Source of the DNA: Pseudomonas fluorescens NCIMB 11764
GTDB taxonomy: Bacteria > Pseudomonadota > Gammaproteobacteria > Pseudomonadales > Pseudomonadaceae
Length of the DNA stretch: 64,000 nt
Reading direction: 5' to 3'
NCBI RefSeq assembly: GCF_000293885.2
Contig: NZ_CP010945.1
Coordinates: 3,802,001-3,866,000, forward strand
In this document: piece by piece, positions 4,176 through 22,176 of the stretch
Position numbering within the stretch: position 1 is the first letter of the stretch
Layout of the letters: every line of letters begins with the position of its first letter
Translations under genes and position numbers: made by a program
The notes under the pieces: generated by a model
The model's input: only the letters and a program-made list of their open reading frames with translations
Told to the model about the DNA's origin: nothing
The model's database searches: none

Positions 4176-4231
4176 CCCCAATAATGGGGAAAAGCTTCAA
4201 CGCACATTCGTACGCTTCCCCGCCTTTGGGG
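4176..4231 (+). promoter_or_regulatory. Tandem CCCC-N6-GGGG sites, candidate enhancer for a sigma54 activator
   Basis: Two inverted repeats of identical architecture, CCCC-AATAAT-GGGG (4176-4189) and CCCC-GCCTTT-GGGG (4218-4231), have centres exactly 42 bp apart, close to four helical turns. Measured from the -24 GG at 4308 the centres lie 125.5 and 83.5 bp upstream. The MCO promoter has related sites at almost the same distances. Binding by the NtrC-type regulator at 27.6 kb is inferred. Confidence 0.5.
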
Positions 4232-4306
4232 GACGCGGTGTCTGAGCGAAAAGGCTTTTCCATGGAAATCAACTACATGCAGCGGTAATACAACCGCCAC
4301 TCAGCC

Positions 4307-4322
4307 TGGCATGAAGTGTGCG
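4307..4322 (+). promoter_or_regulatory. Sigma54-type promoter for the receiver/pseudopilus/curli operon
   Basis: TGGCATG-AAGT-GTGCG has the obligatory GG (4308-4309) and GC (4320-4321) separated by ten bases and matches TGGCACG-N4-TTGCA at most positions. It lies about 68 bp before the receiver-protein start, in a 220-bp gap after ppiC. There is no strong competing sigma70 box. Confidence 0.6.
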
Positions 4323-4388
4323 TTAGCCTCAGTAAGGCGCGCACTCTGCCAGGTTCGGAAATCGGACCTGCGGTTCAAGGAGTCCACC

Positions 4389-4922
4389 TTGTTGAACAAA
4401 GTACTGGTTGTCGAAGACGAACAGCTGCTTGCACAAAACCTCAAGGATTACCTTCAGGCGCAAGCGCTGGACGTCCGGATTGCACATGACGGTGCGACGG
4501 GAATCGGCGAAGCCGAACAGTTTGCACCCGATGTGATGGTGTTCGATTACCGCTTGCCCGATATGGAAGGCTTTGAGGTGCTCGATGCCGTCCGCCAGAA
4601 CAGGAACTGTCATTTTGTGCTGATTACCGGGCACCCAACCGCTGAAGTCTGTGAGCGGGCCCGGCAACTGGGAGTCAGCCATATCCTGTTCAAACCGTTT
4701 CCATTGGCGGAACTGGCCCGTGCAGTCTGTGACCTTCTGGGAATGGAGCGCGAACCCAAAGCCGGCGTGAGCACATGCGAAGGTTTTGTCGAACGACGCC
4801 AGAGCAGGACCGAGAGTTTCCCGCTGCAGTTGTACGACGGCAGTTGGGTGCTGGCGGATCGTCGACGAAGTTCATCGACCTCCATGGCACCGGACGACGA
4901 ACAATTGCTCACCGGGGAGTAG
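4389..4922 (+). CDS. Single-domain response regulator (CheY-like receiver with short tail)
   Basis: Protein of 177 residues. A TTG start is chosen because AAGGAG lies six bases upstream and the receiver fold begins at once (NKVLVVEDEQLL); an ATG at 4311 would add an unlikely leader. The receiver domain (about residues 1-120) has the acidic pair ED, the phospho-acceptor Asp in VMVFDYRLPDMEG, the Thr in LITGH and Lys in FKPF. The last 50 residues are low in structure and contain no DNA-binding domain. It is the first gene behind the sigma54 promoter, ahead of the GspE-like ATPase, so it probably modulates assembly or acts in a phosphorelay with one of the kinases. Confidence 0.78.
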   Translation: MLNKVLVVEDEQLLAQNLKDYLQAQALDVRIAHDGATGIGEAEQFAPDVMVFDYRLPDMEGFEVLDAVRQNRNCHFVLITGHPTAEVCERARQLGVSHILFKPFPLAELARAVCDLLGMEREPKAGVSTCEGFVERRQSRTESFPLQLYDGSWVLADRRRSSSTSMAPDDEQLLTGE

Positions 4923-5006
4923 TGGCGCGACTAGCCGTTCCGGTAACCGCCGTAATTGCTCGCCGCGTCGACAGGGCTCAAAGCCCCCGGCGTTGGAGAG
5001 CAAGTC

Positions 5007-6713
5007 ATGGACCGTCTATCCCTTGCCGTCGAACCGGCGCAGTTGGAATGTGTACCGTCTCGCTTTTCCAGTGAGCAACTCTCCCAGGCACGATCACTGG
5101 CCGCCAGTTCCGGCGAGCGGATGCTCGAAGCCCTCGGGACGCTGTGCGAACTGGCTCCCATGCCCTTCATCCAGTGTCTCGGCGCAACCTTGCATTACCC
5201 GGTGCTCGACACCGACAGCCTGTTCAAGGCCACCCCGGTGTTCGACCGGGTCACCCTGGCCCAATGCCTCAAGCGCGAATTCATCCTGCTGCGTCACGAC
5301 GAGGCGGTCATTGGCGTGTTTGCCGACCCTTTCGATACTTCGCGCCTGGCCTGGATCGATGACTGCCTGCACGGCGCGCCGCTGTACCTGGTGCATGCCG
5401 ACGACCTGAAGGCCTATCTGGCGCGCCACGAAGAAAGCTTCCATGCGGTGGAGTCGCTCAACGCTCAGGCTGAAGCCAACATCGAAATCGATACCCTGCA
5501 AAGCCTGTCCCTGACCAGCATCAGCGAAGACGCCAGCGTCGTCGTCAAACTGGTCAACTCGACCCTGTACGACGCGCTGAAAATGCATGCCAGCGACATT
5601 CATCTGGGCACCACCGGCAGCGGTCTGGTGATCAAGTACCGCATCGACGGCGTGCTCAACAACATCAGCAAGATCCAGGGCAGCGAGTTTGCCGAACAAG
5701 TGATTTCCCGGGTCAAGGTCATGGCCGAACTGGACATCGGCGAGAAACGCGTGCCCCAGGACGGTCGCTTCAAGATCGGCATCAGTGGTCGGCAGATCGA
5801 CTTCCGGGTGTCGATCATGCCGAGCATCTTCGGTGAAGACGCGGTGCTGCGGGTGCTCGACAAACAAGACCTGGCGGACAAGGTCTGCGGCGTGCAGTTG
5901 CAAGCGCTGGGCTTTGAAGACGAGACCCTGCGCCAACTGCGCCGGCTGGCCGCCGAACCCTACGGCATGGTGCTGGTGACCGGTCCCACCGGCAGCGGCA
6001 AAACCACCACGCTCTACGCGATGATCACCGAGATCAACCACGGCGTGGACAAGATCATCACCATTGAAGACCCGGTGGAATATCAATTGCCGGGCGTGTT
6101 GCAAATTCCGGTCAACGAGAAGAAAGGCCTGACCTTCGCCCGGGGGCTGCGCTCGATCCTGCGCCACGATCCGGACAAGATCATGGTCGGTGAAATCCGC
6201 GACCCCGACACCGCCCAGATCGCCGTGCAATCGGCGCTCACCGGGCACCTGGTGTTCACCACCATCCACGCCAACAACGTGTTCGACGTGATCGGCCGGT
6301 TCACCCAGATGGAAATCGACCCTTACAGCCTCGTCTCCGCGCTCAATGCCGTGCTGGCCCAGCGTTTGATCCGCCTGGTCTGCACCACGTGCAGCGCGCC
6401 GAGTCACCCGACCGACGACGAACTGCGCGCCTCGGGGCTCGATCCGCATAACGTCGATCAGTACCGCTTCGTTCTCGGCAAGGGTTGCGGCCATTGCCGG
6501 GGCACCGGCTACCGCGGGCGCACGGCGATTGCCGAGCTGCTGCACCTGGACGACGAGCTACGGCAGATGATCGTCGAGCGCCAACCGATTTCGAAAATCA
6601 AGGCCCATGCGTGCAAACGTGGCTTGCGCCTGCTGCGCGAGTCGGCGCTGGAACTGGTTGCAGATGGGCGGACCACGCTCGAGGAGATCAATCGTGTCAC
6701 TTTTGTCTCGTGA
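5007..6713 (+). CDS. GspE/PilB-type secretion or pilus-extension ATPase
   Basis: Protein of 568 residues; the ATG at 5007 is preceded by GGAGAG. The N-terminal third is a GspE N1/N2-like domain. The ATPase core has Walker A GPTGSGKTT near residue 326, the Asp box TIEDPVEYQLPG, Walker B-like IMVGEIRDPDTAQIA near residue 392 and the His box TIHANN. Two CxxC pairs (CTTC and CGHC) form the zinc-binding tetrad typical of GspE/PilB/MshE. It powers assembly of the pseudopilus from the cytoplasmic face. It overlaps the PilM-like gene by 20 bp. No GspF/PilC membrane platform gene is present in the window, although this ATPase family normally works with one. Confidence 0.93.
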   Translation: MDRLSLAVEPAQLECVPSRFSSEQLSQARSLAASSGERMLEALGTLCELAPMPFIQCLGATLHYPVLDTDSLFKATPVFDRVTLAQCLKREFILLRHDEAVIGVFADPFDTSRLAWIDDCLHGAPLYLVHADDLKAYLARHEESFHAVESLNAQAEANIEIDTLQSLSLTSISEDASVVVKLVNSTLYDALKMHASDIHLGTTGSGLVIKYRIDGVLNNISKIQGSEFAEQVISRVKVMAELDIGEKRVPQDGRFKIGISGRQIDFRVSIMPSIFGEDAVLRVLDKQDLADKVCGVQLQALGFEDETLRQLRRLAAEPYGMVLVTGPTGSGKTTTLYAMITEINHGVDKIITIEDPVEYQLPGVLQIPVNEKKGLTFARGLRSILRHDPDKIMVGEIRDPDTAQIAVQSALTGHLVFTTIHANNVFDVIGRFTQMEIDPYSLVSALNAVLAQRLIRLVCTTCSAPSHPTDDELRASGLDPHNVDQYRFVLGKGCGHCRGTGYRGRTAIAELLHLDDELRQMIVERQPISKIKAHACKRGLRLLRESALELVADGRTTLEEINRVTFVS

Positions 6714-7497
6714 TCGTTTTGTCGCCGTACTCGGCGCCAGTGGTGTCGGCCTCGGCCAGCGCCGTGGCAGCGAAACCCTGTGGCTGGGCAGCGTCGGTTT
6801 TATCGACGAAGGCTTCCATGCCTGGGCCGTGGCGCTGGATACCCTTGACCACTTGCTGGCCGACCACACCCGTTCCGGTGCCGAGTTGAGCGTGGTGATT
6901 TCCGGGCACTTCAGCCGCTTCTGCCTGGTGCCCTGGAGCGAACAGATCAGCAGCCCCGACGAATTACGCGGCTTTGCCCAGCTGTGCCTTGAAGACCTTT
7001 ACGGTGCACCGGCTCAGCCCTGGAGCCTGGTGCTTTCGGCAGAACCGGCGGGGTATGACCGGATCGCCAGCGCGCTGCCGCAAGACTTGCTCACGCGCCT
7101 GCGCACACTGGTCAGCGCCCGTGGCCTGCGCTTGCGTTCGGTGCAGCCGTACCTGATGGCGGCGTTCAATCACTTCGATAGAAGCTTCGATGCCGGCGAC
7201 TTCCTGTTCGTGGTCGCCGAACCGGTGCGCAGCGTGTTGCTGCTGGCCCGGGAAGGCCGCTGGGCCTCGGTGCGTTCTTTGGGCAGCAGCGACAGCGACG
7301 CCGCACTGACCGCGCTGATCGGCCGCGAAAGCCAGTTGCAGGCTTCCACCAGCGAGCGGCCGCTGAACGTCTACCTGCATGCCCCTGCGCGCATCGACGT
7401 GCAGCCCGATGTACCCGAGGTACATTTGCGTACCCTTGAAGAAGGCCGGACACCCGTACGCGATTGCCTGTACGTCATGTCCCGGGCGGTGGCCTGA
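6694..7497 (+). CDS. PilM/MshI/GspL-like cytoplasmic assembly protein (divergent)
   Basis: Protein of 267 residues starting at GTG with GAGGAG upstream, overlapping the end of the ATPase gene by 20 bp. Homology is weak by eye, but position (between the ATPase and the PilN-like gene), size and an ASKHA-like layout fit MshI/PilM (a beta-strand with FVAVLGASGVGL at the N-terminus, FLFVVAEPVRSVLLLAREGRW in the middle). PilM-type proteins link the ATPase to PilN and PilO at the inner membrane. No membrane segment is seen, as expected for PilM and unlike GspL. Identification rests mostly on context. Confidence 0.6.
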   Translation: MSLLSRDRFVAVLGASGVGLGQRRGSETLWLGSVGFIDEGFHAWAVALDTLDHLLADHTRSGAELSVVISGHFSRFCLVPWSEQISSPDELRGFAQLCLEDLYGAPAQPWSLVLSAEPAGYDRIASALPQDLLTRLRTLVSARGLRLRSVQPYLMAAFNHFDRSFDAGDFLFVVAEPVRSVLLLAREGRWASVRSLGSSDSDAALTALIGRESQLQASTSERPLNVYLHAPARIDVQPDVPEVHLRTLEEGRTPVRDCLYVMSRAVA

Positions 7498-7498
7498 G

Positions 7499-8044
7499 AT
7501 GCGCGCCCTGAACCTCGACTTTCAGCCGCGCCGCCGCTCGGGCCCCCTGGGCTGGAGCCTGTTGGCCGTGGGCATAGTGCTGGTGCTGGGTTGCATCCTC
7601 GTTCAGCAGCACCTCAGTGACGAAACCGCGCAACAACAGGGCCATCTGCAAACCGCCCAGCGCGTCCTCACCGGCGACAACGGCACCAAGGTCAGCCTGA
7701 CGCCGGCAGAAACCCGCGAGCAGGCGCAAAACCTCGCCGAGATGCGCAAGGTCTCGCAGCAACTGCGTCGGCCTTGGGAGAGTCTGTTTGCCCTGCTCGA
7801 AGCCATGCCTCGCGACAACATCGCCTTGCTGACCCTGACACCCGATGCCCGCAAGGGTCAGCTCAGGATCAGCGCCGAGGCGAAAGACCTCGACGCCATG
7901 CTCGACTTCCACCGCAACCTCGAAGCCAGCGACGAGCTGTCCGATGTGTCGCTGCTCAGCCACGAAATCGTGGCCAACGTGCCGGAGCACCCGGTGCAAT
8001 TCAACTTGTCGGCTACCTGGGAGATTGGCGATGCGAATCCCTAG
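7499..8044 (+). CDS. PilN/GspL-C-like inner-membrane assembly protein
   Basis: Protein of 181 residues. The N-terminus starts with the PilN-like cytoplasmic peptide MRALNLDF, which in PilN inserts into PilM, followed by one membrane segment (about residues 17-37, SLLAVGIVLVLGCILVQ), a coiled-coil-prone stretch, and a small ferredoxin-like domain (IALLTLTPDARKGQLRISAEA). The start codon overlaps the upstream stop region by one base and the gene overlaps the PilO-like gene by 14 bp. It belongs to the PilMNO-type platform of the apparatus. Confidence 0.72.
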   Translation: MRALNLDFQPRRRSGPLGWSLLAVGIVLVLGCILVQQHLSDETAQQQGHLQTAQRVLTGDNGTKVSLTPAETREQAQNLAEMRKVSQQLRRPWESLFALLEAMPRDNIALLTLTPDARKGQLRISAEAKDLDAMLDFHRNLEASDELSDVSLLSHEIVANVPEHPVQFNLSATWEIGDANP

Positions 8045-8579
8045 ATTGATCGTCCACGAATACCTGCAAGGCCTGGGCATTCCCGGTCTGGCGGGGCTGG
8101 CAATGCTGGCGCTGGCGTTGGTCTATGGTCTGGCGGGCCTGGTGCCGGACTGGCAGTCGCTGCAACAGCTCAGCCAGCAGACCCGCGACGCCGGCGAGTA
8201 CCTGGCCAGGGTGGAAGACGGTAGTGTCGCCGCCCCGGTGGTGCCGCAACGTCAGCTCGACGACTTCCGCAGCAAGCTGCCTTCGCAACCTCAGGCTACC
8301 GTCGCCATCGACAAGATCTACGCGCTGGCGGCCCAGGAACACATCACCCTGGCGCGCGGTGAATATGCCTTGGGCATCGACCCTAAAACCCATCTGGCCC
8401 GCTATCAGATTCTGCTGCCGGTGCGCGGCAGCTACCCGCAACTGCGGCGCTTCCTGCATGCCTTGCTCGGCCAGTTGCCGGCGGTGGTGGTGGAGGACGT
8501 GGAGTTCCAGCGCAAGAAAATCGCCGACACCGACCTGACCGGGCGGATCCGCATGACCCTTTACCTGTCGAGGTCATGA
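8031..8579 (+). CDS. PilO/GspM-like inner-membrane assembly protein
   Basis: Protein of 182 residues: a short cytoplasmic N-terminus, one membrane segment (about 17-40, GIPGLAGLAMLALALVYGLAGLV), a helical linker, then a periplasmic alpha/beta domain (ATVAIDKIYALAAQEHITL, RYQILLPVRGSYPQLRRFLHALL) characteristic of PilO. It overlaps both neighbours by a few bases. In type IV pilus and MSHA systems PilO dimerises with PilN and contacts PilP. Confidence 0.75.
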   Translation: MRIPRLIVHEYLQGLGIPGLAGLAMLALALVYGLAGLVPDWQSLQQLSQQTRDAGEYLARVEDGSVAAPVVPQRQLDDFRSKLPSQPQATVAIDKIYALAAQEHITLARGEYALGIDPKTHLARYQILLPVRGSYPQLRRFLHALLGQLPAVVVEDVEFQRKKIADTDLTGRIRMTLYLSRS

Positions 8580-9097
8580 TGAATATCAAGCGCGTAGTGG
8601 GCTGGATGGGGTTCTTCGGTGTTGCGGCGGCGCTGGCCTGGTTGCCGGATTACTTGATGCCGGTCGACGAGGGCGATGCGGCCGTTGCCACCTTGCCGAC
8701 CGCGAGCAAAAACAAAACCCGGGGTGCGCTGCCTGCCGCGCCGGCCACTGCCAAGCCGGCAGTGGTGAAGGACTTGAGCCCGGCCGGCGACTTGTTCGCC
8801 GCCCGCAGCTGGAAGGCGGCGCCGACCCTCGCCAGCGTCATCGAACAACCCATCAACGTGACCCCGGTGGTGCAGGTCCCCAGCGTACCGCCGATGCCTT
8901 TCCAGTTTGTCGGGAGGCTGGATGACCGTTCTGACCTGCAAGTGTTTTTGCAGAACGGCGAAAAAATATACGTCGTGCGCAAAGGGGATGTAATCGACGA
9001 AACCTGGCGGATCGAGGGCATTTCCGATGTGGAACTGAGCTTCATCTACCTGCCTTTGCATGTGTCCCAGACCTTGTCTGTGGGGAGCGCGCCATGA
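8576..9097 (+). CDS. PilP/GspC-like periplasmic connector
   Basis: Protein of 173 residues with an N-terminal membrane anchor (VVGWMGFFGVAAALAWL), a Pro/Ala-rich linker and a C-terminal HR-like beta domain (PPMPFQFVGRLDDRSDLQVFLQNGEKIYVVRKGD...). This layout is that of GspC and PilP, which connect the inner-membrane complex to the secretin. It overlaps the secretin gene by ATGA. It has no lipobox, so it is anchored by its membrane helix, closer to GspC than to classical PilP. Confidence 0.72.
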   Translation: MMNIKRVVGWMGFFGVAAALAWLPDYLMPVDEGDAAVATLPTASKNKTRGALPAAPATAKPAVVKDLSPAGDLFAARSWKAAPTLASVIEQPINVTPVVQVPSVPPMPFQFVGRLDDRSDLQVFLQNGEKIYVVRKGDVIDETWRIEGISDVELSFIYLPLHVSQTLSVGSAP

Positions 9098-10932
9098 ACA
9101 GATGCCGTTTGCTGATGAGCCTTGCCTGCCTCTGCGCAGGGCTGGCCGCGTGCAGTTCCGCGCGGATCGCCAACAAGGAAGCGTCCGAGCTGATCGAGCA
9201 AGGACAATACGAAGCCGGCCTGGCGCGTATCGAAGAAGGGCTGCGGGAAAATCCTCGTGATACTGAACTGCATCTGGCCCTGAATACCGCCCACGCCAAG
9301 GCAATTACCGCGCTGTTGACCGAGGCCGATACGGATCGTGCGCATCGGGACTTTTCCGCCGCACGCGTCAACTACAGCCGGGTGTTGACCATCGAGCCGA
9401 ACAACCGTCGTGCCCAGGACGCCATGCGCCAACTCGATTACATGCGCAGCCTGGATGAAAAACTCGAGCTGGCCCGTGGCGACCTGCGTCGCGGCGACAT
9501 CTACGGGGCCGACCGCCAGGTCAAACAGATTCTCGAACTGGACCCTAAAAACGACGGCGCACTTGAACTGCAAAGCAACATTCGCCTGGTCCAGAGCCGC
9601 AACGTGATTCCGTATCCACAGCTGCGCACACGCCTGGAACGGCCCGTGACCCTGGAGTTTCGCGACGCCAACCTGAAGACCATTTTCGAAGTGCTGTCCC
9701 AGGTCGCCGGCCTGAATTTCATCTTCGACAAAGACCTGCGCCCGGACATGAAAGCCACGATCTTCGTGCGTGATGTGCGCATCGAAGACGCCGTGGAACT
9801 GCTGCTGCAACAGAACCAGCTGCACCAGAAAGTGGTGAACGAAAACACCTTGCTGATCTACCCGGACTCGCCGCAAAAGCTCAAGGATTACCAGGAGCTG
9901 GTGATGCGCACGTTCTACCTGACCAGCATCGATGCCAACACCGCACTGAACATGATCAAGACCATGCTCAAGACCCGCGATGTGTTTGTCGACGAGCGCC
10001 TCAACACCCTGACCATGCGCGACACCGAAGACGCCATCCGCATGGCGGAAAAGCTCCTGCAATCGCAAGACCAGTCCAACCCTGAGGTGGTGCTGGAAGT
10101 GGAGGTGATGGAAGTTGCCACCCAGCGGATTCTCGACCTCGGCCTGCAATGGCCGAACACCTTTGGCGTGGTCAACAGCGACGGTTCGCCGGTGTCGCTG
10201 CTCAACCAATTGAAAGGTATCGACTCGAGCCGGATCACCATCAATCCATCGCCCCAGCTCAAGATCAACGCCCAGGACAACGACATCAACACCCTGGCCA
10301 GCCCGGTGATTCGTGTCAGTAACCGCGAGCAGGCGCGTATCCACATCGGTCAGCGTGTGCCGATCATCAGTGCCACGTCGGTGCCGTCGACCCAAGGCCC
10401 GGTGATCACCGAAAGCGTCACTTACCTGGACGTCGGTCTGAAGCTGGAAGTGCAACCGACCGTGCACCTGAACAACGAAGTGGCGATCAAGATCGCCCTG
10501 GAAGTCAGTAACGCAACGCCGCTGGAACCGACCCGGCAGGGCACGATCCCGGTTCAGGTCGATACCCGCAACGCCCAGACCACCCTGCGTCTGCATGACG
10601 GCGAAACCCAGATCCTCGCCGGCCTGATGCGCAATGACCATGGCGCCACTGGCAACAAGATTCCGGGTCTTGGCGACATCCCGGGCCTGGGCCGGTTGTT
10701 CGGCAGTAACAAGGACAACGTCAGCAAGTCGGAACTGGTGTTGTCGATCACGCCTCGCATCGTGCGCAACCTGCCGTACCAGAGCCCGTCGGACATGGAG
10801 TTCCCGACCGGCACCGAAACCAGCATGCACATTCAGGCACCGGATCGCCGGATGGAATCATCGAACCAGCCGGAGTCCATCGATCGGCCGGTGGCTGCCA
10901 CCAATGTGCAAGTCAGCGTCGGGAAGCCTTGA
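9094..10932 (+). CDS. Outer-membrane secretin, GspD/PilQ/MshL type, lipoprotein with TPR-like N-terminus
   Basis: Protein of 612 residues. A lipobox (LAAC, Cys near residue 21) marks it as a lipoprotein, so it may not need a separate pilotin. Residues of about 25-175 are TPR-like helices (EASELIEQGQYEAGLARIEEGL, RRGDIYGADRQVKQILELDPKN). STN/N-domains follow (LEFRDANLKTIFEVLSQVAGLNFIFDKDLRP), then the conserved secretin C-domain with VPIISATSV, SVTYLDVGLKLEVQPTVH and GLGDIPGLGRLFGSNKDNVSKSE (reported here in pieces). It would form the outer-membrane channel of the pseudopilus. It lies one frame before three pseudopilin genes and then the curli exporter genes. Confidence 0.92.
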   Translation: MNRCRLLMSLACLCAGLAACSSARIANKEASELIEQGQYEAGLARIEEGLRENPRDTELHLALNTAHAKAITALLTEADTDRAHRDFSAARVNYSRVLTIEPNNRRAQDAMRQLDYMRSLDEKLELARGDLRRGDIYGADRQVKQILELDPKNDGALELQSNIRLVQSRNVIPYPQLRTRLERPVTLEFRDANLKTIFEVLSQVAGLNFIFDKDLRPDMKATIFVRDVRIEDAVELLLQQNQLHQKVVNENTLLIYPDSPQKLKDYQELVMRTFYLTSIDANTALNMIKTMLKTRDVFVDERLNTLTMRDTEDAIRMAEKLLQSQDQSNPEVVLEVEVMEVATQRILDLGLQWPNTFGVVNSDGSPVSLLNQLKGIDSSRITINPSPQLKINAQDNDINTLASPVIRVSNREQARIHIGQRVPIISATSVPSTQGPVITESVTYLDVGLKLEVQPTVHLNNEVAIKIALEVSNATPLEPTRQGTIPVQVDTRNAQTTLRLHDGETQILAGLMRNDHGATGNKIPGLGDIPGLGRLFGSNKDNVSKSELVLSITPRIVRNLPYQSPSDMEFPTGTETSMHIQAPDRRMESSNQPESIDRPVAATNVQVSVGKP

Positions 10933-10934
10933 TC

Positions 10935-11408
10935 ATGAGCGCCTCGCAACGTGGTTTTACCTTGATCGAAGTCGTGGTGACGCTGGCCCTGATCGGCTTG
11001 CTGGCCGGTATGGCCGCACCGCTGACCGAGACCGTGGTGCGCCGGGGCAAAGAGCAGGAATTGCGCACGGCGCTGTACCAGATCCGCGATGCCATCGACG
11101 CCTACAAGCGTGCATTCGATGCCGGTTACATCGAGAAGTCGCTGAACAGCAGCGGCTATCCGCCGAACCTCAAAGTGCTGGTAGACGGCGTGCGCGACGT
11201 GCGCAGCGCCAAGGGAGCCAAGTTCTATTTCTTGCGCCGCGTACCCCATGACCCGCTGGCCCCGGTCAAGCGCGACGACGAAGGCGGCTGGGGCCTGCGC
11301 GCCTACGACAGCACGGCTCAAAACCCGCGAGAAGGCGAAGACGTCTTCGACATTTATTCGAAAGCGCGCGGCAAGGGTCTCAACGGCATCGCGTACCGGG
11401 AGTGGTGA
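10935..11408 (+). CDS. Type II pseudopilin, GspG-like (first)
   Basis: Protein of 157 residues with a class III prepilin leader: MSASQRG then FTLIEVVVTLALIGLLAG. Cleavage by a prepilin peptidase after Gly7 exposes Phe1, with Glu5 in place. The C-terminal half is GspG-like (YKRAFDAGYIEKSLNSSGYPPNLKVLVDGV, YFLRRVPHDPLAP, WGLRAYDS). The gene begins two bases after the secretin stop. The prepilin peptidase is not encoded in the window and must come from elsewhere (PilD). Confidence 0.88.
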   Translation: MSASQRGFTLIEVVVTLALIGLLAGMAAPLTETVVRRGKEQELRTALYQIRDAIDAYKRAFDAGYIEKSLNSSGYPPNLKVLVDGVRDVRSAKGAKFYFLRRVPHDPLAPVKRDDEGGWGLRAYDSTAQNPREGEDVFDIYSKARGKGLNGIAYREW

Positions 11409-11412
11409 GCAT

Positions 11413-13244: not shown

Positions 13245-13274
13245 CGGGATTCGGGTTGATGGGGAGTGAAGGAC

Positions 13275-14683: not shown

Positions 14684-16129
14684 TTACTGCTGCAACACCG
14701 TCGCCCGGTTATCCGTCCCCAACTGCTGAACAGTCGCCATCTGCGCCACACCGCTCTGATCAACATTGGCAATGTTCCCGGTGCCGCCCTGGGTCACATA
14801 CGCCACGTTCATCGTGTCAGCCTGTTTCAGCGTGATCTGGTTATCGCTGCCCCACTGGGTGGTGTAGGCCTGGTTGCCGGTGCCGGACTGGTCGAATTCG
14901 GTGCGGTTGGCCGTGCCGGTGCTGGTGCCCGAGGCGAGGTTGGTGGTGCCGCGTTGATCGGCGATGAGGATGTTGTCGCTGCCGTTCTGGTCGAAGTACA
15001 GCTCGTTGTAACTGTCGGCCTGGCTGACCGTGGTTTTGTTCCCGGTGCCGGTCTGGTTGGTGGTCATGATGTGGCCGACGCCGTCCTGGGTGAAGTTGGC
15101 GATGTTGGCGTTGCCGGTCTGGTTGATGGTTGCGCGCTGATTGCTGCCGAACTGGCCACCTTTTTGCGGGCCTTTCCAGTTGCTGGCGTAGACCTTGTTG
15201 TCGTTGCCTACCGAGGTGGCGGTGAGTGAATGACCTTCGCCGGTCTGGTAGGTGAAGTGCGTGTTGCCCGTGCCTGTCTGGTACAGCGCGATGGTCGAGC
15301 CGGTGGATTCGAACTGATCGGCATAGATCGCGTTGAGGTCGCCGACCTGAAAGACCCGGGCGGTGTTGTTTTCGCCGAAGCTCTGGTCGACCACGGTTTC
15401 GTTGGTCAGGCCGATCTGGTCGACGGTGGTTTCGCTGCCGACTTGTCCGTCTTGCCAGACTTCAGCGCCGTTGCCTTCGCCGAGCTGGTTGATGGTCAGG
15501 TTGCCGCCGTCGCCGTTGCGCTGGTCGCCGTAGGCGTAGTTGCTGGTGCCGGTCTGGTTGAGGTTGATCTGACCGCCCATGTGGTTGATCTGTTCGGCGG
15601 TGGCGTAGTTGGTGGTGCCGTACTGCATGATCACCGCAGTGTTGGCGATGCCGAGCTGGATCTGTTCGATGTTGGCTTCGTTGCTGTCACCGAACTGGAA
15701 GGTTTGACCTGTCGTACCTTCCTGGCTGTCCTGATAGACGAACGAGAAGTTGCCGGTGCCTTGCTGTTGCTGCAGCACTTCACCGCCACCCACACCAATC
15801 GACTGGCTGGCATGGCTGGTGTTGAAGCTGCCGGTCTGTTGCTGGTTGATGGTGCTGTTGTTTTCGAACAACTGCTCGGCGTAACCGGCGTTGTACTCAC
15901 CGACCTGGTTCTGGTCGATGGTACTGGTGGCCGAGTCCTGCACGGCGGCCGCGTCGTTACCCTGTCCGAGTTGCTGCTGGGTGGCGGTGCTGAAGGGGGC
16001 CAGGGTCTGTTTCACATCGGCGACGTTGGCGGTGCCGACCTGGTCCTGGGTGGAAACACTGTCGTCGGCCATCGCCTGGGCACTGACAATGACCAGGATG
16101 GCGGCGGTGAGGGGCGTCAGTTTGAACAT
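14684..16129 (-). CDS. csgA: Major curlin CsgA, very long form with about 20 curlin repeats
   Basis: Protein of 481 residues, about three times the size of E. coli CsgA. A signal peptide (MFKLTPLTAAILVIVSAQAMA) is followed by about 20 imperfect repeats of 22-23 residues with the curlin signature N-x5-Q-x-G-x2-N-x-A-x3-Q (NQTGTSNYAYGDQ, NQTGNANIANFTQ, DQSGTGNQAYTTQ). Such repeats stack as beta-strand-loop-strand units in the amyloid. TGGAGG lies upstream of the ATG. It follows csgB after a 27-bp gap and is the last gene of its operon. Export would need CsgG/E/F encoded convergently. csgC and csgD are not in the window. Confidence 0.92.
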   Translation of the reverse strand: MFKLTPLTAAILVIVSAQAMADDSVSTQDQVGTANVADVKQTLAPFSTATQQQLGQGNDAAAVQDSATSTIDQNQVGEYNAGYAEQLFENNSTINQQQTGSFNTSHASQSIGVGGGEVLQQQQGTGNFSFVYQDSQEGTTGQTFQFGDSNEANIEQIQLGIANTAVIMQYGTTNYATAEQINHMGGQINLNQTGTSNYAYGDQRNGDGGNLTINQLGEGNGAEVWQDGQVGSETTVDQIGLTNETVVDQSFGENNTARVFQVGDLNAIYADQFESTGSTIALYQTGTGNTHFTYQTGEGHSLTATSVGNDNKVYASNWKGPQKGGQFGSNQRATINQTGNANIANFTQDGVGHIMTTNQTGTGNKTTVSQADSYNELYFDQNGSDNILIADQRGTTNLASGTSTGTANRTEFDQSGTGNQAYTTQWGSDNQITLKQADTMNVAYVTQGGTGNIANVDQSGVAQMATVQQLGTDNRATVLQQ

Positions 16130-16156
16130 GATGAAACCTCCAGGTGGTGCAGTGCT

Positions 16157-16618
16157 TTAGCGGTATTGTTTGACCGAAACGCTCATGCCGTTTCCGGACT
16201 GGCTCACGGCGCTGGAAAGCCCCGTGCCGGCCTGGTCGATGCTGGCGTCGTTGTTGTTGCCGTTCTGGGAAATCTGCGCGCGGTTCTGGCTGCCGGCCTG
16301 GGTGATCGAGGCGGAGTTGCCGGAGCCTTGCTGGGTGATCATCGCCATCAGGTCGCTGCCTTGTTGCAGGATGTACGCTTCCTGATTGCTCCCCGACTGG
16401 ACGATGGTGCCGAGCAACGACTGGCCGTTCTGTTGCAGCAACGCCACGTTGGCCTGGCCGGTCTGGTCGATCAGCGCGTGCTGGCCAATCGGCGGTGGCA
16501 ACTCGCCGAGGTCGGTGCCGGGGCCCAGGTCGTCGTTCTCCATCAGATCGTCGGCGCGCACGCTCGCGCTGCTGCAGAGCAGAAGCAGGCAGAGCAGGGC
16601 GGCGGTCGACGTTTTCAT
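16157..16618 (-). CDS. csgB: Minor curlin/nucleator CsgB
   Basis: Protein of 153 residues. The ATG at 16618 follows AAGGA and gives the signal peptide MKTSTAALLCLLLLCSSASVRA. An acidic linker is followed by five curlin repeats (IDQTGQANVALLQQNG, ITQQGSGNSASITQAG, ISQNGNNNDASIDQAG). The last repeat ends with a basic tail, VKQYR, comparable to the Arg-containing end of E. coli CsgB used for nucleation. It is located directly before csgA, in the order B then A as in the E. coli csgBAC operon. Confidence 0.88.
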   Translation of the reverse strand: MKTSTAALLCLLLLCSSASVRADDLMENDDLGPGTDLGELPPPIGQHALIDQTGQANVALLQQNGQSLLGTIVQSGSNQEAYILQQGSDLMAMITQQGSGNSASITQAGSQNRAQISQNGNNNDASIDQAGTGLSSAVSQSGNGMSVSVKQYR

Positions 16619-16643
16619 GAGGCTGTCCTTCAGCAAGAGGCCT

Positions 16644-16671
16644 GCCCCATCGGCCACATGACCGATGGGGC
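16644..16671 (-). terminator. Perfect 10-bp hairpin between the Ig-repeat gene and csgB
   Basis: GCCCCATCGG (16644-16653) pairs with CCGATGGGGC (16662-16671) around an 8-nt loop. It has no T-run. Inside an operon it may act as partial terminator or as an RNase stop that raises csgBA mRNA relative to the genes upstream. Confidence 0.65.
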
Positions 16672-16677
16672 GAGGAC

Positions 16678-18927
16678 TCAGTTCGAGATCACCGACACCG
16701 AACGCACGGTGCCTTGGGACGAGGTGATGGTGGCAGTCGGGTTCGCCGACGGGATCACCGTGGTGGTGTTGTTCACCGTCAACCGCCAGCGACCGGTCAC
16801 CGGCACCGTGGTGGTGCCCAGGGTTTGCAGCCCGGTTGGGGTGCTGACCCGGACGGTGATGGTGTTGCCGGTGATCACCGACGAGGTGCCCGCAAAGTCC
16901 CAGGTGAAGCGGTTGTTGGAGCGTGCCGACACCGTTGCCGTGGTCACCGTGAAGGCTTCTGCCGGTGGCCGTGGCGAGACTTGCACCGTGACTGTGGCCG
17001 GTGTCACCGACAGGGCGCCGAAGTTGTCCCGGGCGATGTAGGTGAAGGTGGTGGTGAACGCCGTGGTCACGGTGGCCGGTGGTGTGTAGGTGATCACCGT
17101 GCCGTTGCTGCTGACGGTGCCGCGACCGGCCGCTGGTTGCGTGAAGCTGGCTATCGCGAGCGGCACGTTGCCTTCCGGGTCGGTGTCGTTGAGCAACACG
17201 TTGATCGGCACCGCCACTCCCAGGGTTGCGATGCTGTCGGCGACGGCCACCGGAGGCTGGTTAGGCGCCACGGTGATGGTCACGGTTGCCGGGGCGGTCG
17301 AGGCCAGGCCTTTGATGTCTTGCGCCTTGTAGGTGAAGGTCGTGGTCAACGGTGCATTGACCACCGCTGGTGGCGTGTAGACCACGGCGGTCGTGCCGCT
17401 CAATGCCACGGTGCCCTGGCCGGCGGCGGGTTGGGTCAGCGCGGTGATGCTCAACGGTGTATTGCCGTCCGGATCACTGTCGTTGGCCAGCAGGTTGAGG
17501 GTGATCGGCACACCGAAACTGGTGCTGCCGGTGTCGGCGACGGCCAGCGGCGACTGGTTTTCACCGCTGTTCGGTGCCGTCCCTACCACCACAACCGGCT
17601 CGGTGTCACTGCCGCCGGCGGCGGACTTGATGGTGACACTGGCCGGAGGCTGCGTCAGATCGGCAACGGTCAGCCGTTGCAGGATGCCGGTCTTGCTTAG
17701 ACGTCCGTAACCCTGGGCGACCATGTCCGGCACCAGCACTTCGTCAGACGAGGTGGCCTCGATGAGCAGGCTGTGGTTGCTCCAGTTGTAGCGAGCGGTC
17801 TGGATTTTCACCACATCGGTGACTTTGCTCGACACTGCGGTTGGTCGGCTGGTGCCACTCGGGTCGGTAGCGGTGACCACCACCACCGAAGGAACGGTGG
17901 TCCCCGTCAGGCGATGAGCGAAGAACTCACCGGTGTTGTCGCCGAGCATGTTGACCAGGCATGGCGTCTGCGGTGGTCCTGGAACCAGGGCCACGGTTTC
18001 GCGGAAGCACAGGCTCGAACTGTTGGAAGATTTGCCGAAGACTTCCACCCGGGTACTGCTCGTTCCCGGACCTGTAGACATGCGGCGGTAAGTGGCGCGG
18101 CCGATTTCCACAGGGGTTTGCGCGCGGCTGTCGAGGACTTTGCCGGACACGGTGAAGAGGTTGGTCTGGATGGTACCGGCCGGCCCCTGGACACGCAGGA
18201 AGTTGTTGTTGAACGGACTGCCGGTGACCGCTTCGGTGAGGTTCGGATCGCCAACATAAGTTTCGACGGACCCGGTGTCCGGATTCACTTCGGTATACGG
18301 ACCGTTGACGCTGCGCAGGAAAGGTCCGACCTCCCCGTTGAGCGCACCCGAGAAGTTGCCCGGTGCGCCGATGCCGATGTCGCGGGTGATGTTGATCGCC
18401 CGACGGCCCGGGGTGGTGACGTTGACCGTTTCCACTCCGTACGGGTGGGTGATGGTGTAAGTCCCCGCGACAGGTATGTTCACCCGCAGACGAATCCGCG
18501 CGAAGCTGGCCTGATCGCCATCGACCGGGTTTTCCGCAGCGAATGCCGCTTCGATCCCGGCCACGTAGGCATCCACGCCATAACCTCCGACATCGTTGAT
18601 GCTGGTCTCGGCGAGGAACCAGAACGCTTCCGGTGGCCAGTTATCCGGAAACACCATGGGCTGGGTGTCGTCGAAGATCCCAGGTTCCGGGTTCAGGATG
18701 CACATGTAGGCGGGCGCGCCAGGAGCGCCGGGTGACCGCGAGCTGGTCGCCCGTGACTGGCACAGTTCCAGCGACAGCAAATTGCTGTCCTGATACCACA
18801 TGGGGAATTTCCCCGTGGCAAAGGTGTAGGGGCCGGTATCGACGGCATTGAGTTGCGCGAACGCACTGCCGGACAGCGAGAGCGTCAGCCCGAGCGCGTT
18901 GAGCGCGAAGCGTGGCCACTTGTTCAT
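16678..18927 (-). CDS. Secreted two-part protein: conserved N-domain plus cadherin/Ig-like repeats
   Basis: Protein of 749 residues. The start at 18927 is preferred over 18966 because AGGAGG precedes it and a signal peptide follows (MNKWPRFALNALGLTLSLSGSAFAQ). Residues up to about 430 share an N-domain with the next gene product (WYQDS, YMCILNPEPGIFDDTQPMVF, RDIGIGAPGNFSGAL, GPFLRSVNGPYTEVNP). Two tandem cadherin-like/Ig repeats then follow (NQSPLAVADTGS...LNLLANDSDPDGN and NQPPVAVADS...VLLNDTDPEGN), whose DxDPDGN-type loops usually bind calcium, and a short C-terminal beta domain. It is probably a surface or matrix protein co-produced with curlins. The function of the N-domain is unknown to me. 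Confidence 0.7.
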   Translation of the reverse strand: MNKWPRFALNALGLTLSLSGSAFAQLNAVDTGPYTFATGKFPMWYQDSNLLSLELCQSRATSSRSPGAPGAPAYMCILNPEPGIFDDTQPMVFPDNWPPEAFWFLAETSINDVGGYGVDAYVAGIEAAFAAENPVDGDQASFARIRLRVNIPVAGTYTITHPYGVETVNVTTPGRRAINITRDIGIGAPGNFSGALNGEVGPFLRSVNGPYTEVNPDTGSVETYVGDPNLTEAVTGSPFNNNFLRVQGPAGTIQTNLFTVSGKVLDSRAQTPVEIGRATYRRMSTGPGTSSTRVEVFGKSSNSSSLCFRETVALVPGPPQTPCLVNMLGDNTGEFFAHRLTGTTVPSVVVVTATDPSGTSRPTAVSSKVTDVVKIQTARYNWSNHSLLIEATSSDEVLVPDMVAQGYGRLSKTGILQRLTVADLTQPPASVTIKSAAGGSDTEPVVVVGTAPNSGENQSPLAVADTGSTSFGVPITLNLLANDSDPDGNTPLSITALTQPAAGQGTVALSGTTAVVYTPPAVVNAPLTTTFTYKAQDIKGLASTAPATVTITVAPNQPPVAVADSIATLGVAVPINVLLNDTDPEGNVPLAIASFTQPAAGRGTVSSNGTVITYTPPATVTTAFTTTFTYIARDNFGALSVTPATVTVQVSPRPPAEAFTVTTATVSARSNNRFTWDFAGTSSVITGNTITVRVSTPTGLQTLGTTTVPVTGRWRLTVNNTTTVIPSANPTATITSSQGTVRSVSVISN

Positions 18928-18962
18928 GATGCCTCCTGATGCGGATCTGGGCATGAGAGCGT

Positions 18963-20309
18963 TCATTGCACGATGACCACTTCTTCGGTATCGCTGCCGC
19001 CATTGGATGACGTCACCCGAACCTTGGCCGGTGGAATCGGCGAGATGCCGGTCGACAGGGTTTTTTCTGCGCCATTGCCACTGAGGGCACCAATGGCGAC
19101 ACCCGTGCCGGAGGTGACGGTGAGTACCGGCGGCGACGTTTCATCGCTGGTCGAAGCCACTACCGTGATTTGCCCGTTGCTCAGGCTGTACTCGGCCCGT
19201 GAAATCACGACCAGGTCGGTCAGCGGCATGGTCAAGGACGTCGGCGTGCTGGTGGGAATGGCCAGGTGGTTGTCGGCCGTCACCAGCAAATTGCTCGGTA
19301 ATGTCGGGTTGGTGGCTGACTGGGCATACCAGTGGCCGGTGGTGTTGGCTTCGGTCAGGTTCAGCACCGGGCTGTTGCTGTCCAGGGTCACGGTGGCCGG
19401 TGGTGGCGGGGCCAGGACGAAGACATCCTGTTGGGCCTCCGGGGCGCTGCTGCCGGCCTTGCGTGAGTAGGTGCTGCGCTCGGCTATGATCGGGGTGGGC
19501 CGAACCACCGTCGAAAGCTTGCCGGAGATAGCCATGACCGTTGTGCGCAAGTCCAGGCCGTTAGGTCCTTCAATGCGGATGTAGTTGGTGTTGAAAGGGC
19601 TGCCGGTAAACGCTTCCTCCAGGTTTGGATCACCGACGAATTGGTCGGCGGAACCAGTGACCGGGTTGGTCTCGGTGTAGGGGCCGTTGACGCTACGCAG
19701 GAAAGGGCCGATGTCACTTTTGAGCGCGCCGTCGTAGGTTTTCGGCGAGCCGATACCGATGTCCCGGGTCATGTTGATCGCGCGACGTCCGGGGGTATCG
19801 ACATTGAAGACATCGACGCCGTAGGGGTGGGTGATCACATAGGTGCCAGCGGTGGGCACGTCCACCCGAATACGGATACGGCCAAAACTGACCTGGTCGC
19901 CTTCAACCGGATCTCCAGCGGCGAAGGCCGCTTCGACGGCGCTGACGTAGGTCAGGTCAATGCCCCGTGCCGCGTCGACAATGGATCCGTCACCGGTGAA
20001 CCAGAACGCTTCATCGGGAAAGTTGGTCGGGAAAACGATCGGCTGAGTGTCGTCGAAAATACCGGGATTCGGATTCAAGAGGCACATGTAGGACGGCGCA
20101 CCGGGCGCGCTTGGAACCCTGGAGCTGACAGCCTTGGACAGGCATAAGTCAAAGGTTCGACCGTGGGAGTCCTGATACCAGGAAGCGAAATTGCCGTTGG
20201 CGGGAACGTAGGGGCCCGGATCGACAGCAAACAGCGCTGCCTGGGCCACGCCTTGGGCCAGAGCGGACACAACCAGGGCGATCGCGGTTTTGGACAGTAA
20301 AGGGTGCAT
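18963..20309 (-). CDS. Secreted protein of unknown function, paralogue of the Ig-repeat protein's N-domain
   Basis: Protein of 448 residues with a signal peptide (MHPLLSKTAIALVVSALAQGVAQA). Motifs shared with the neighbour are AVDPGPYVPANGNFASWYQDS, SYMCLLNPNPGIFDDTQPIVF, RDIGIGSPKTYDGAL and GPFLRSVNGPYTETNP; both have conserved Cys residues before PGAP and in YMC. It lacks the calcium-type repeats. Its C-terminus (SNGGSDTEEVVIVQ) matches the segment before the repeats in the neighbour (SAAGGSDTEPVVVVG), so the two share a full-length module. First gene of the curlin operon, with a sigma54 promoter upstream. No known family recognised. Confidence 0.65.
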   Translation of the reverse strand: MHPLLSKTAIALVVSALAQGVAQAALFAVDPGPYVPANGNFASWYQDSHGRTFDLCLSKAVSSRVPSAPGAPSYMCLLNPNPGIFDDTQPIVFPTNFPDEAFWFTGDGSIVDAARGIDLTYVSAVEAAFAAGDPVEGDQVSFGRIRIRVDVPTAGTYVITHPYGVDVFNVDTPGRRAINMTRDIGIGSPKTYDGALKSDIGPFLRSVNGPYTETNPVTGSADQFVGDPNLEEAFTGSPFNTNYIRIEGPNGLDLRTTVMAISGKLSTVVRPTPIIAERSTYSRKAGSSAPEAQQDVFVLAPPPPATVTLDSNSPVLNLTEANTTGHWYAQSATNPTLPSNLLVTADNHLAIPTSTPTSLTMPLTDLVVISRAEYSLSNGQITVVASTSDETSPPVLTVTSGTGVAIGALSGNGAEKTLSTGISPIPPAKVRVTSSNGGSDTEEVVIVQ

Positions 20310-20366
20310 GAGTATTCCCTCTATCAGAGACCTGCCCGTGGGGATGGGTCAGTTGAGGGTGCTTCG

Positions 20367-20381
20367 GCAACTTCCATACCA
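20367..20381 (-). promoter_or_regulatory. Sigma54-type promoter for the secreted protein/csgBA operon
   Basis: Read on the minus strand the sequence is TGGTATG-GAAG-TTGC, with GG (20380-20379) and GC (20368-20367) ten bases apart. The transcript would begin about 45 bp before the ATG at 20309. The match to TGGCACG-N4-TTGCA is strong. Confidence 0.65.
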
Positions 20382-20470
20382 ATCGCGGGAAACCGCCGCC
20401 AGAGGCCCGGAATCAGGGCTTTTCAGGCATAGGCAGCGGCGGCTTGCCATCCGGTCATACGGGCCACTGT

Positions 20471-20484
20471 CCCCAGCATTGGGG
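20471..20484 (-). promoter_or_regulatory. CCCC-N6-GGGG inverted repeat upstream of the curlin-operon promoter
   Basis: CCCCA-GCAT-TGGGG is a palindrome of the same form as the site at 4176. Its centre is about 97 bp upstream of the -24 GG. A half-site (GGGG at 20509-20512) lies about 126 bp upstream. The region between 20310 and 20589 contains no gene. Confidence 0.45.
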
Positions 20485-20589
20485 GTAGATGGGGAGAGCG
20501 GGCAGGTTGGGGGCGGCGGGGACCCAAGGTCGGGCAAACAGCCATGAGTGGGCTATAACCAATGGGGGGAATCGCCAGGAAGTACGCCC

Positions 20590-22035
20590 ATGAACATGCC
20601 GACGCAAATGCTCCAGTCCGAGGAGGGCAGTCGCCTGAGCTCGCGCAAGCAGCCGTTCAATCTGCTGCGCTGGTTTTCACTGATCAGCATGGGGGTGATC
20701 GGCACGGTGGCGGTGTCGCTGGGCGTGGTGTCCACGCGGTTCGTGATTACCGAGAGTGTGCAGCGTGATGCGCTGCTGACATCGCAGTTCATTCAGGCGA
20801 TTGCCTCGGCCGAGGTGCGCCACGTCTCGATTCCCAATGTGCGAACCATGGGCGAGCTGCTGGACCCCCGCCAGGACCGCAACTTTCCCGACGTCGACCC
20901 GCTGGCCCGCGCCAATGCCCGGGGCGAATTTCTCGACCATATCGAGCATCTGCCAGACGTGATTCTGGCCAACGTCTATGCGCCTGACCGTATGGTGATC
21001 TGGTCGACAAACCCGGCCTTGATGGGCACGACCATCCATGCCGACGAGGACCTGGACAAGGCCTTCGAGTTCAGGAGGCCGGTGTCGGCCAGTTATCACG
21101 AAGTGGACAAGGCGCGCATGGAGCAGAAGTTCGTCAAGCAACCGGAATACATCTTTATCGAAAACTACATCCCGCTGTTCGATGCCGATGGAACAAATGT
21201 CACCGCGATGGTGGAGATCTACAAGGAGCCGAACGATTTGATCGACCGCATGGAGCGCGGCCTGGTGCTGATCTGGCTGGCCACTGCGCTGGGCGGCGGG
21301 CTGATTTATCTGGGGCTGTACTGGATCGTGCGGCGGGCGGCAATTCTGCTGGAGGTGCAGCAAAAACAATTGATCACCAACGAAACCTTCGTCGCACTGG
21401 GCGAGATGTCGTCGGCGGTGGCCCACAGCTTGCGCAACCCGTTGGCGACCATTCGCTCCAGTGCCGAACTGGCGCTGGAGTTCGACAGCGGCCCGGCACA
21501 CAAAAACATCACCGACATCATTGGCCAGGTGGATCGCATGTCGAAATGGGTCAGGGAGCTGCTGCAATCCCTGCGTCCACTGCATGACGAGCCCGAACCG
21601 GTGAATCTGGTGGCGGCGTTGCAGGACAGCCTCATGGCTTTCGAACAGCAGATTGCCAAGGCCGGGGTCCACGTGGTGTTCGAGCCGAAGGAAACGCCCA
21701 TGGTCCTGAGCCAGCAGGTGCAGTTGTCGCAGATCCTCAACAGTTTGCTGGCCAATGCGCTGGAAGCCATGGACAAGGGAGGCACGCTGACCATCGCCCT
21801 TGAGTCGACTGATTTCCGAGGCGTCAGCGTAGTGGTGAGCGACACCGGCAAGGGCATGAATGAGGAACAACGCAGCATGGCCTTCCGGCCGTTTTTCACC
21901 ACCAAGCAAGGCGGGCTCGGTGTCGGGCTGGTCCTGGTCAAGCGCATCATGGAGCGTTGCGGTGGTGCCGTGAGCCTGGACAGTCGTGAGGGCGAGGGGA
22001 CGAGGGTGCGTCTGTCATTCAAGCGGGTTCCCTGA
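20590..22035 (+). CDS. Membrane sensor histidine kinase, MnxS-like (first paralogue)
   Basis: Protein of 481 residues; the ATG at 20590 follows AGGAAG. Membrane helices at about residues 27-47 and 225-247 enclose a 175-residue periplasmic sensor region. The HisKA box is GEMSSAVAHSLRNPLATIRSS with His279. The ATPase domain has the N-box LNSLLANALEAM, G1 DTGKGM, F-box FRPFFTTKQGG and G2 GLGVGL. The E/S-x-x-x-AHSLRNPLA form is typical of NtrB-like kinases that feed sigma54 activators. It is clearly paralogous to the kinase at 26.2 kb. In Mn(II)-oxidising P. putida two kinases, MnxS1 and MnxS2, act on MnxR; the resemblance is inferred from architecture and context. Confidence 0.85.
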   Translation: MNMPTQMLQSEEGSRLSSRKQPFNLLRWFSLISMGVIGTVAVSLGVVSTRFVITESVQRDALLTSQFIQAIASAEVRHVSIPNVRTMGELLDPRQDRNFPDVDPLARANARGEFLDHIEHLPDVILANVYAPDRMVIWSTNPALMGTTIHADEDLDKAFEFRRPVSASYHEVDKARMEQKFVKQPEYIFIENYIPLFDADGTNVTAMVEIYKEPNDLIDRMERGLVLIWLATALGGGLIYLGLYWIVRRAAILLEVQQKQLITNETFVALGEMSSAVAHSLRNPLATIRSSAELALEFDSGPAHKNITDIIGQVDRMSKWVRELLQSLRPLHDEPEPVNLVAALQDSLMAFEQQIAKAGVHVVFEPKETPMVLSQQVQLSQILNSLLANALEAMDKGGTLTIALESTDFRGVSVVVSDTGKGMNEEQRSMAFRPFFTTKQGGLGVGLVLVKRIMERCGGAVSLDSREGEGTRVRLSFKRVP

Positions 22036-22085
22036 AACGGGGATGAGCTTTCCCCGTTAGCGGGTGTCAATCCCCAGCCCGTTTT
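22029..22085 (+). promoter_or_regulatory. CCCC-N6-GGGG-like sites upstream of the oxidase promoter; hairpin after the kinase
   Basis: Site 1, TCCC-TGAAAC-GGGG (22029-22042), and half-site CCCC-AGCCCG (22072-22081) have centres about 126.5 and 83.5 bp upstream of the -24 GG at 22162. The spacing repeats that seen before the receiver operon (125.5 and 83.5). Overlapping it, AACGGGGA/TCCCCGTT (22036-22058) can fold as a hairpin after the kinase stop. Confidence 0.42.
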
Positions 22086-22160
22086 CGGTCGTGGCACATT
22101 GATGTTGATAAGTCGTTGTTTTATCGGGATTATATTTTTCGTATAAAACTGTTACAAATT

Positions 22161-22176
22161 TGGCGAGCTCCTTGCA
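22161..22176 (+). promoter_or_regulatory. Sigma54-type promoter for the multicopper oxidase
   Basis: TGGCGAG-CTCC-TTGCA matches the consensus TGGCACG-N4-TTGCA in nearly all positions, with GG (22162-22163) and GC (22174-22175) ten bases apart. Start of transcription would be near 22187, about 30 bp before the ATG at 22218. Confidence 0.72.

Follow-up and report, generated by a model that had tools for sequence, protein, structure and literature searches.

Oxidation of manganese (Mn) in Pseudomonas putida GB-1 requires MnxS1, MnxS2 and MnxR (PMC11409713, PMC11930936), and in strain MS-1 it requires rpoN (PMC11409713). As far as the accessible portions of these papers go, the GB-1 promoters PmnxG and PmcoA are induced by Mn and carry predicted sigma54 and integration host factor (IHF) sites (PMC11409713, PMC11930936). 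The window considered here, that is, the whole 64,000-nucleotide stretch analysed (C1:3802001-3866000 of the 7.0 Mb genome G000, Pseudomonas fluorescens NCIMB 11764), holds the Mn(II)-oxidation cluster of Pseudomonas, as identified from domains and gene order: mcoA, mnxS1, mnxS2 and mnxR lie inside it, and mnxG just outside, to the left. The locus shares with GB-1 the gene set and the predicted sigma54 dependence; the proposal made here goes beyond the GB-1 account, whose accessible text gives neither a DNA site for MnxR nor an internal promoter ahead of mnxS2-mnxR and names no curli or secretion genes as targets. Boxes of the form CCCC(A/G)-N4-TGGGG stand upstream of four operons with sigma54-type promoters, those of mnxG, of a receiver gene followed by genes resembling a type II secretion system (T2SS) and csgEFG, of secreted proteins with csgBA, and of mcoA, where the boxes are imperfect. 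These elements very probably belong to a genuine sigma54-type regulon that is conserved and has a defined enhancer box, whose most likely reader is MnxR.

NtrC-family activators such as NtrC, AtoC, ZraR and NtrX combine a receiver domain, an AAA+ domain and a Fis-type helix-turn-helix (HTH), and their inverted-repeat sites lie upstream of -24/-12 promoters. MnxR has the same domain set, and the inverted repeats described here likewise lie upstream of -24/-12 promoters. We know of no NtrC-family site that CCCC(A/G)-N4-TGGGG matches, and although MnxR matched 115 NCBIfam models, it reaches the curated cutoff of none of the 25 that were listed. As in the enteric curli system controlled by CsgD, the cluster encodes CsgE, CsgF, CsgG and curlin-repeat subunits (PF10627, PF10614, PF03783 and PF07012) split over two operons; unlike those of the enteric system, the operons here carry MnxR-type boxes and sigma54-type promoters and adjoin Mn oxidases. 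A T2SS-like gene set has been linked to Mn oxidation before, since de Vrind et al. in 2003, going by their title, reportedly described how a Gsp-related pathway secretes the Mn-oxidising factor of GB-1. In the accessible text of the open-licence literature we found no MnxR site and no curli or secretion genes named as MnxR targets; an earlier mention in the primary MnxR papers is possible.

Boxes and promoters, and their conservation

We denote the promoters of the receiver, secreted-protein/csgBA, mcoA and mnxG operons P1, Psec, PmcoA and PmnxG, and give box distances from the box centre to the first G of the -24 GG. An earlier, sequence-only reading of the window had placed GG-N10-GC elements before the receiver operon, the csgBA operon and the oxidase, and all three are present: TGGCATGAAGTGTGCG at P1 (4307-4322, plus strand, aligned across relatives), TGGTATGGAAGTTGCC at Psec (20366-20381, minus strand) and TGGCGAGCTCCTTGCA at PmcoA (22161-22176, plus strand). 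The two sites read upstream of P1 are exact CCCC-N6-GGGG matches at the distances claimed, 125.5 bp for the far box (CCCCAATAATGGGG; 4176-4189, plus strand) and 83.5 bp for the near box (CCCCGCCTTTGGGG; 4218-4231, plus strand), and the palindrome claimed at about 97 bp from Psec is a perfect CCCCA-N4-TGGGG (CCCCAATGCTGGGG; 20471-20484, minus strand) at 97.5 bp, which also precedes the divergent mnxS1. At PmcoA, the far site given at 126.5 bp holds with one mismatch (TCCCTGAAACGGGG; 22029-22042, plus strand), whereas its supposed partner at 83.5 bp (22072-22085) does not: this sequence reads CCCCAGCCCGTTTT, has three mismatches and was rejected as a second box. It amounts to a CCCC half-site (22072-22075, plus strand) 3' of the near box, and 53 of 55 PmcoA sequences have a CCC after the near box. 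The better near box (CCCCGTTAGCGGGT; 22052-22065, plus strand, one mismatch) is centred 103.5 bp from the -24 GG, which puts it 20 bp upstream of the rejected sequence and 23 bp from the far box. Because the real second box of PmcoA is at 103.5 bp, the geometry thought to be common to P1 and PmcoA, with paired sites about 42 bp apart, is true of P1 only. IHF-like sites are commoner than in mononucleotide shuffles before P1, mcoA and mnxG and show no such enrichment before Psec; they were not used as proof.

For comparison we drew on 80 named MnxR loci, all labelled Pseudomonas (69 with a complete sec1 start, 54 with a complete mcoA start), on 31 P1 sequences (the window and 30 genomes hand-picked for diversity from 132 mnxR-positive genomes) and on 26 PmnxG sequences, a set that left out L164, L165 and L168 because their mnxG match began after residue 25 and did not include the paralogues L169 and L170. 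The -24/-12 promoter is conserved in relatives for P1, PmnxG and PmcoA; at Psec, no more than 51 of 69 relatives have the canonical GG-N10-GC. Before P1, 29 of the 31 sequences have a pair of exact boxes with a spacing of 40-45 bp, at 123.5-127.5 and 82.5-85.5 bp in 23 cases, at 137.5-148.5 and 93.5-104.5 bp in five and at 114.5 and 73.5 bp in one; the joint shifts correspond to about one or two helical turns. The Psec box is exact in 67 of 69 relatives and has one mismatch in the other two, and it lies 96.5-98.5 bp from the GG in all 51 with a canonical promoter. All 54 PmcoA relatives match the sigma54 motif at 9-10 of 11 positions and have at least one box with at most one mismatch, mostly at about 105 bp and often also at about 129 bp, with one clade at about 83.5 and 63 bp. 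PmnxG matches the motif at 10-11 of 11 positions in all 26 sequences, and a box at 60-130 bp is exact in 14 and has one mismatch in 9.

Two positions for which the boxes had not been selected are also strongly biased. Position 5 is A in 93% of P1 far boxes, 93% of Psec and 71% of mnxG boxes, and G in 88% of P1 near boxes; position 10 is T in 100%, 93% and 79% of the former three and in 100% of P1 near boxes, all of these percentages leaning slightly upwards because the choice of register in C runs favoured A/T. Across the 80 MnxR loci, the Psec and PmcoA regions (30,750 bases in all) contain 69 exact boxes as against 15 in the other 1,543,307 bases, a 231-fold higher density. The sequence-only reading had named beforehand, as grounds for giving it up, equal density of the box in unrelated regions and lack of conservation in orthologous loci; the box is concentrated at the promoters and conserved in orthologous loci. 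In L169 and L170 (genomes G264 and G271), the second mnxG-like gene (70-71% identity over the N-terminal 400 residues) is preceded by another sigma54-like element with a one-mismatch box only about 49 bp away.

Within the window, three exact CCCC-N6-GGGG matches were observed against 2.07 expected, and at least three occurred in 30 of 100 dinucleotide shuffles, so that the count alone is not significant; the earlier estimate of about four chance matches in 64 kb was somewhat high. Sigma54-like matches in the window are not clearly above shuffles either (53 found, 44.37 expected). Arguments from either count were dropped; what makes the case is where the boxes lie and how well they are conserved, and not how many there are. 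In the whole genome, exact CCCC-N6-GGGG is found at 32 places versus 121 for the reversed control GGGG-N6-CCCC; the pattern is thus rare in this genome, and the shuffle expectation for the window lies far above the genome's own density. Four of the 32 fall within a span of 28.2 kb that reaches from mnxG as far as the secreted-protein operon, where 0.13 would be expected (Poisson about 1e-5, for a span picked after the sites had been seen).

A composite search of the genome, for CCCC-N6-GGG with an exact left arm followed within 60-121 bases by TGGY-N8-TGC, returned ten hits, five of which belong to this cluster (both boxes of P1, and Psec, PmnxG and PmcoA). The remaining five were rejected as further members of the regulon: none has the full GGGG, and four lie in the middle of long open reading frames (ORFs), the fifth (L231) not. 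Of the 28 other exact boxes in the genome (two of which overlap at one place), none is followed, read in either direction, by a sigma54-like site at 50-150 bp; in two cases such a site lies closer, at 17 or 36 bp. One exact box, CCCCAACTGTGGGG at G000:C1:5470753-5470766 (L136), lies outside long ORFs with high GC at third codon positions and has no sigma54-like site nearby; it is either a chance occurrence or another kind of MnxR target.

MnxR as the candidate reader of the boxes

Among 398 genomes of the genus, 132 were classed as mnxR-positive (MnxR match with E <= 1e-150). A blind, gene-independent search for two exact boxes 5-35 bases apart found the pattern in 129 of the 132 mnxR-positive and in 9 of the 266 mnxR-negative genomes, and a reversed control pattern shows, by inspection, no tie to mnxR. 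The three positive genomes that escaped the search still carry boxes: G331 has P1 deleted, with the receiver gene, both kinases and mnxR behind an mnxG remnant that comes with both an exact box and a sigma54 element; in G235 there are two boxes, each with a single mismatch; and G060 has a single exact box. CCCCAN4TGGGG occurs on average 5.6 times per mnxR-positive versus 3.2 times per mnxR-negative genome. In six of the 30 P1 genomes (G275, G266, G271, G217, G384 and G200), mnxR and P1 share a contig but are 0.28-1.8 Mb apart, and neither exact box has been lost; retention of the boxes despite a distant mnxR is evidence less open to linkage.

The gene for MnxR (27615-29045, plus strand) encodes a receiver (PF00072), a sigma54-interaction AAA+ domain (PF00158) and a Fis-type HTH (PF02954), and MnxR is the sole sigma54 activator among the cluster proteins tested. 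Of 124 copies, 113 share an identical HTH core and the other 11 have one or two changes in it (some species being represented twice). All 124 copies carry GAFTDA, not the exact GAFTGA of most sigma54 activators. According to the accessible part of one report, the GAFTDA variant is also found in a Desulfovibrio activator and is listed as expected to keep activity (PMC4641369), so that it does not exclude MnxR from the sigma54 activators. The proposal of the sequence-only reading that the NtrC-type regulator at 27.6 kb is the ligand of shared sigma54 enhancer sites, itself a prediction, is strongly supported by the co-occurrence of the two-box pattern with mnxR, by boxes kept at distances of up to 1.8 Mb and by the near-invariant HTH core. 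The regulon would also be larger than that reading described, taking in mnxG outside the window and probably mnxS2-mnxR.

In the mechanism that we propose, Mn(II) would, in stationary phase, activate MnxS1 and MnxS2, which would phosphorylate MnxR. Dimers of MnxR would then bind the CCCC(A/G)-N4-TGGGG boxes about 60-150 bp upstream of the -24/-12 promoters, and bound MnxR would oligomerise, contact sigma54-RNA polymerase, presumably via DNA looping, and open the promoter with ATP. The proposed targets are the mnxG operon, the receiver/T2SS-like/csgEFG operon, the secreted-protein/csgBA operon and mcoA-sco.

Another regulator that co-occurs with mnxR might instead bind the boxes, with MnxR using other sites. 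Co-occurrence is known for part of these genomes' regulators, and in six of 30 genomes a long distance separates mnxR from P1; however, sigma54 promoters require an enhancer-binding activator, a role that only MnxR could fill among the cluster proteins tested, the P1 receiver protein having a receiver domain only. The boxes, moreover, track the presence of mnxR, and in the accessible GB-1 data Mn induces PmnxG and PmcoA, and Mn oxidation depends on MnxS/R, all of which makes a different ligand quite improbable. We also consider it unlikely that MnxR, although it binds the boxes, acts as a repressor or plays a dual role at part of the promoters, for example at Psec or the divergent mnxS1, so that the regulon would not be uniformly activated. 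Psec does usually have a single box, lacks IHF-like enrichment and has a non-canonical -12 in 18 of 69 relatives, and its box stands in the gap between Psec and mnxS1; yet the fixed distance of this box from the -24 GG in all 51 canonical relatives is that of an upstream activator site. Conservation of the palindromes for another reason (a terminator hairpin, replication or DNA structure), or their chance origin in GC-rich sequence, is hardly credible: the palindromes are GC-rich and their number in the window does not exceed that in shuffles, but their inner bases vary while their arms are fixed, they keep a defined distance from promoters, they show the 231-fold higher density there, and they are tied to mnxR as, by inspection, the reversed control is not.

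Several observations weigh against a regulon read by MnxR through these boxes. Both PmcoA boxes are imperfect, with one mismatch each, and the box-to-box spacing differs, being 40-45 bp at P1 versus about 23 bp at PmcoA, so that the promoters have no geometry in common. In the promoters of the 80 MnxR loci, N7 spacers occur as often as N6, since C runs extend the left arm. The 18 Psec relatives just mentioned lack the canonical -12 GC (GT; replaced or absent), and 3 of the 26 PmnxG sequences have neither an exact nor a one-mismatch box at 60-130 bp. Nine mnxR-negative genomes match the two-box pattern; in three of them (G090, G205 and G288), the loci concerned gave no match to any of 15 cluster proteins. 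Finally, the genomes are related, so that the co-occurrence counts are not independent and p values are not to be taken literally.

Probable autoregulation and a possible link to curli

In the window, mcoA, sco, mnxS2 and mnxR follow one another on one strand, with a gap of about 97 bp between sco and mnxS2. Among the named loci, 21 have no detected mcoA between mnxS1 and mnxS2, and all 21 have a box (at most one mismatch) and a sigma54 element after mnxS1; in six of them, mnxS2 starts 301-442 bp after mnxS1. In a diverged clade, whose MnxR is 78-81% identical to that of the window, 11 of 13 genomes have a sigma54 element immediately upstream of mnxS2-mnxR and a box at 82.5-84.5 bp from this element, and of the remaining two, one has the box without the element and one the element without the box. 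No mcoA was found in the stretches read of this clade. The position of mnxS2-mnxR behind mcoA-sco here, and behind a box promoter of its own in the diverged clade, suggests that the system probably activates its own regulator, and we infer positive autoregulation of mnxS2-mnxR from this arrangement of sequence elements. PmnxG and PmcoA reporters are bimodal in P. putida GB-1, for which the authors favour environmental cues (PMC11930936); the word "feedback" is absent from the main text of that paper, as far as it is accessible.

Locus-type csgG is present in 123 of 132 mnxR-positive versus 0 of 266 mnxR-negative genomes, and nine mnxR-positive genomes gave no csgG match. A distant csgG (about 50% identity) occurs in ten mnxR-negative genomes, for example G020, G068 and G115, and as a second copy in G087 and G151. 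According to the accessible part of a 2012 survey, the csg operons of Pseudomonas, except in P. stutzeri, have no csgD nearby, and other regulators were suspected (PMC3521004). From its predicted sites, MnxR is a candidate regulator of Pseudomonas curli. It is quite possible, though we stop short of calling it probable, that curli in Mn-oxidising Pseudomonas form part of a self-amplifying program triggered by Mn(II), in which MnxR would activate both oxidases, the secretion system, the large secreted proteins, curli and itself together with mnxS2, and cells would switch bimodally to a mineral-bearing amyloid matrix. What points to such a program is the co-occurrence of csgG with mnxR, the box and sigma54 promoters before mnxS2-mnxR (11 of 13) and after mnxS1 (21 of 21), and the bimodality in GB-1; we likewise infer the operon limits and the co-expression of curli. 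If the proposal is true, the DNA target of MnxR, a regulator that the accessible literature otherwise describes from mutants and domain predictions, is identified, and Mn oxidases, secretion machinery and curli amyloid come under a single regulon. It would also provide a candidate regulator for Pseudomonas curli and an explanation by feedback for bimodal Mn-oxidase expression. The curli link and the self-activation loop are the points most worth specialist testing.

Gene content of the locus

The names mnxS1, mnxS2, mnxR and mcoA are based on domains and on synteny with the loci described in the accessible part of PMC11409713, where the order mnxS1-mcoA-sco-mnxS2-mnxR is known from MS-1 and DSV-1. 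From left to right, the mnxG operon is followed here by the receiver operon, the minus-strand secreted-protein/curlin operon, mnxS1, mcoA, sco, mnxS2 and mnxR. The mnxG gene (L016:12503-18319) matches the curated equivalog model NF041487 with 3912.6 bits against a cutoff of 3100. The window starts inside the mnxG operon, with genes for two SCO1/SenC proteins, a periplasmic-binding/cytochrome c protein and a SurA/PpiC-type protein; GB-1, MS-1 and DSV-1 have been described as having this set (PMC11409713, accessible part).

The first gene of the P1 operon (4392-4922, plus strand) has a probable TTG start and encodes a stand-alone receiver (PF00072) with orthologues in other genomes. In the shrunken cluster L241 of genome G331, which retains an mnxG remnant, the receiver gene stands directly before both kinases and mnxR, which suggests that the stand-alone receiver belongs to the signalling system. 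The rest of the receiver operon (4392-14129 in all), identified by domain matches, comprises T2SS-like genes (T2SSE, PilN, T2SSM_b, secretin and pseudopilin) and then csgE, csgF and csgG (4956-14129, plus strand), and thus encodes a T2SS-type ATPase, PilN- and GspM-like proteins, a secretin and a pseudopilin in addition to the three Csg proteins. The Psec operon (14684-20309, minus strand), its limits judged from gene order, encodes two secreted proteins and then two curlin-repeat proteins, csgB- and csgA-like (PF07012, PF17963). On the plus strand follow the mnxS1-like sensor kinase gene (20590-22035; PF00512, PF02518), mcoA with a SCO1/SenC-cytochrome c gene (22218-26053; PF07731, PF02630) and the mnxS2-like sensor kinase gene (26150-27646), which, like mnxS1, is assigned by its domains and named by synteny. 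The mcoA product has a Cu-oxidase_2 domain, and gene order as in MS-1 and DSV-1 makes it a candidate orthologue of GB-1 McoA. Further left of mnxG, on the opposite strand, lie genes for T2SS F and G proteins, and near these a gene on the minus strand (L016:9120-9695) encodes a predicted, very glycine-rich protein with a signal-like start, possibly a secreted substrate.

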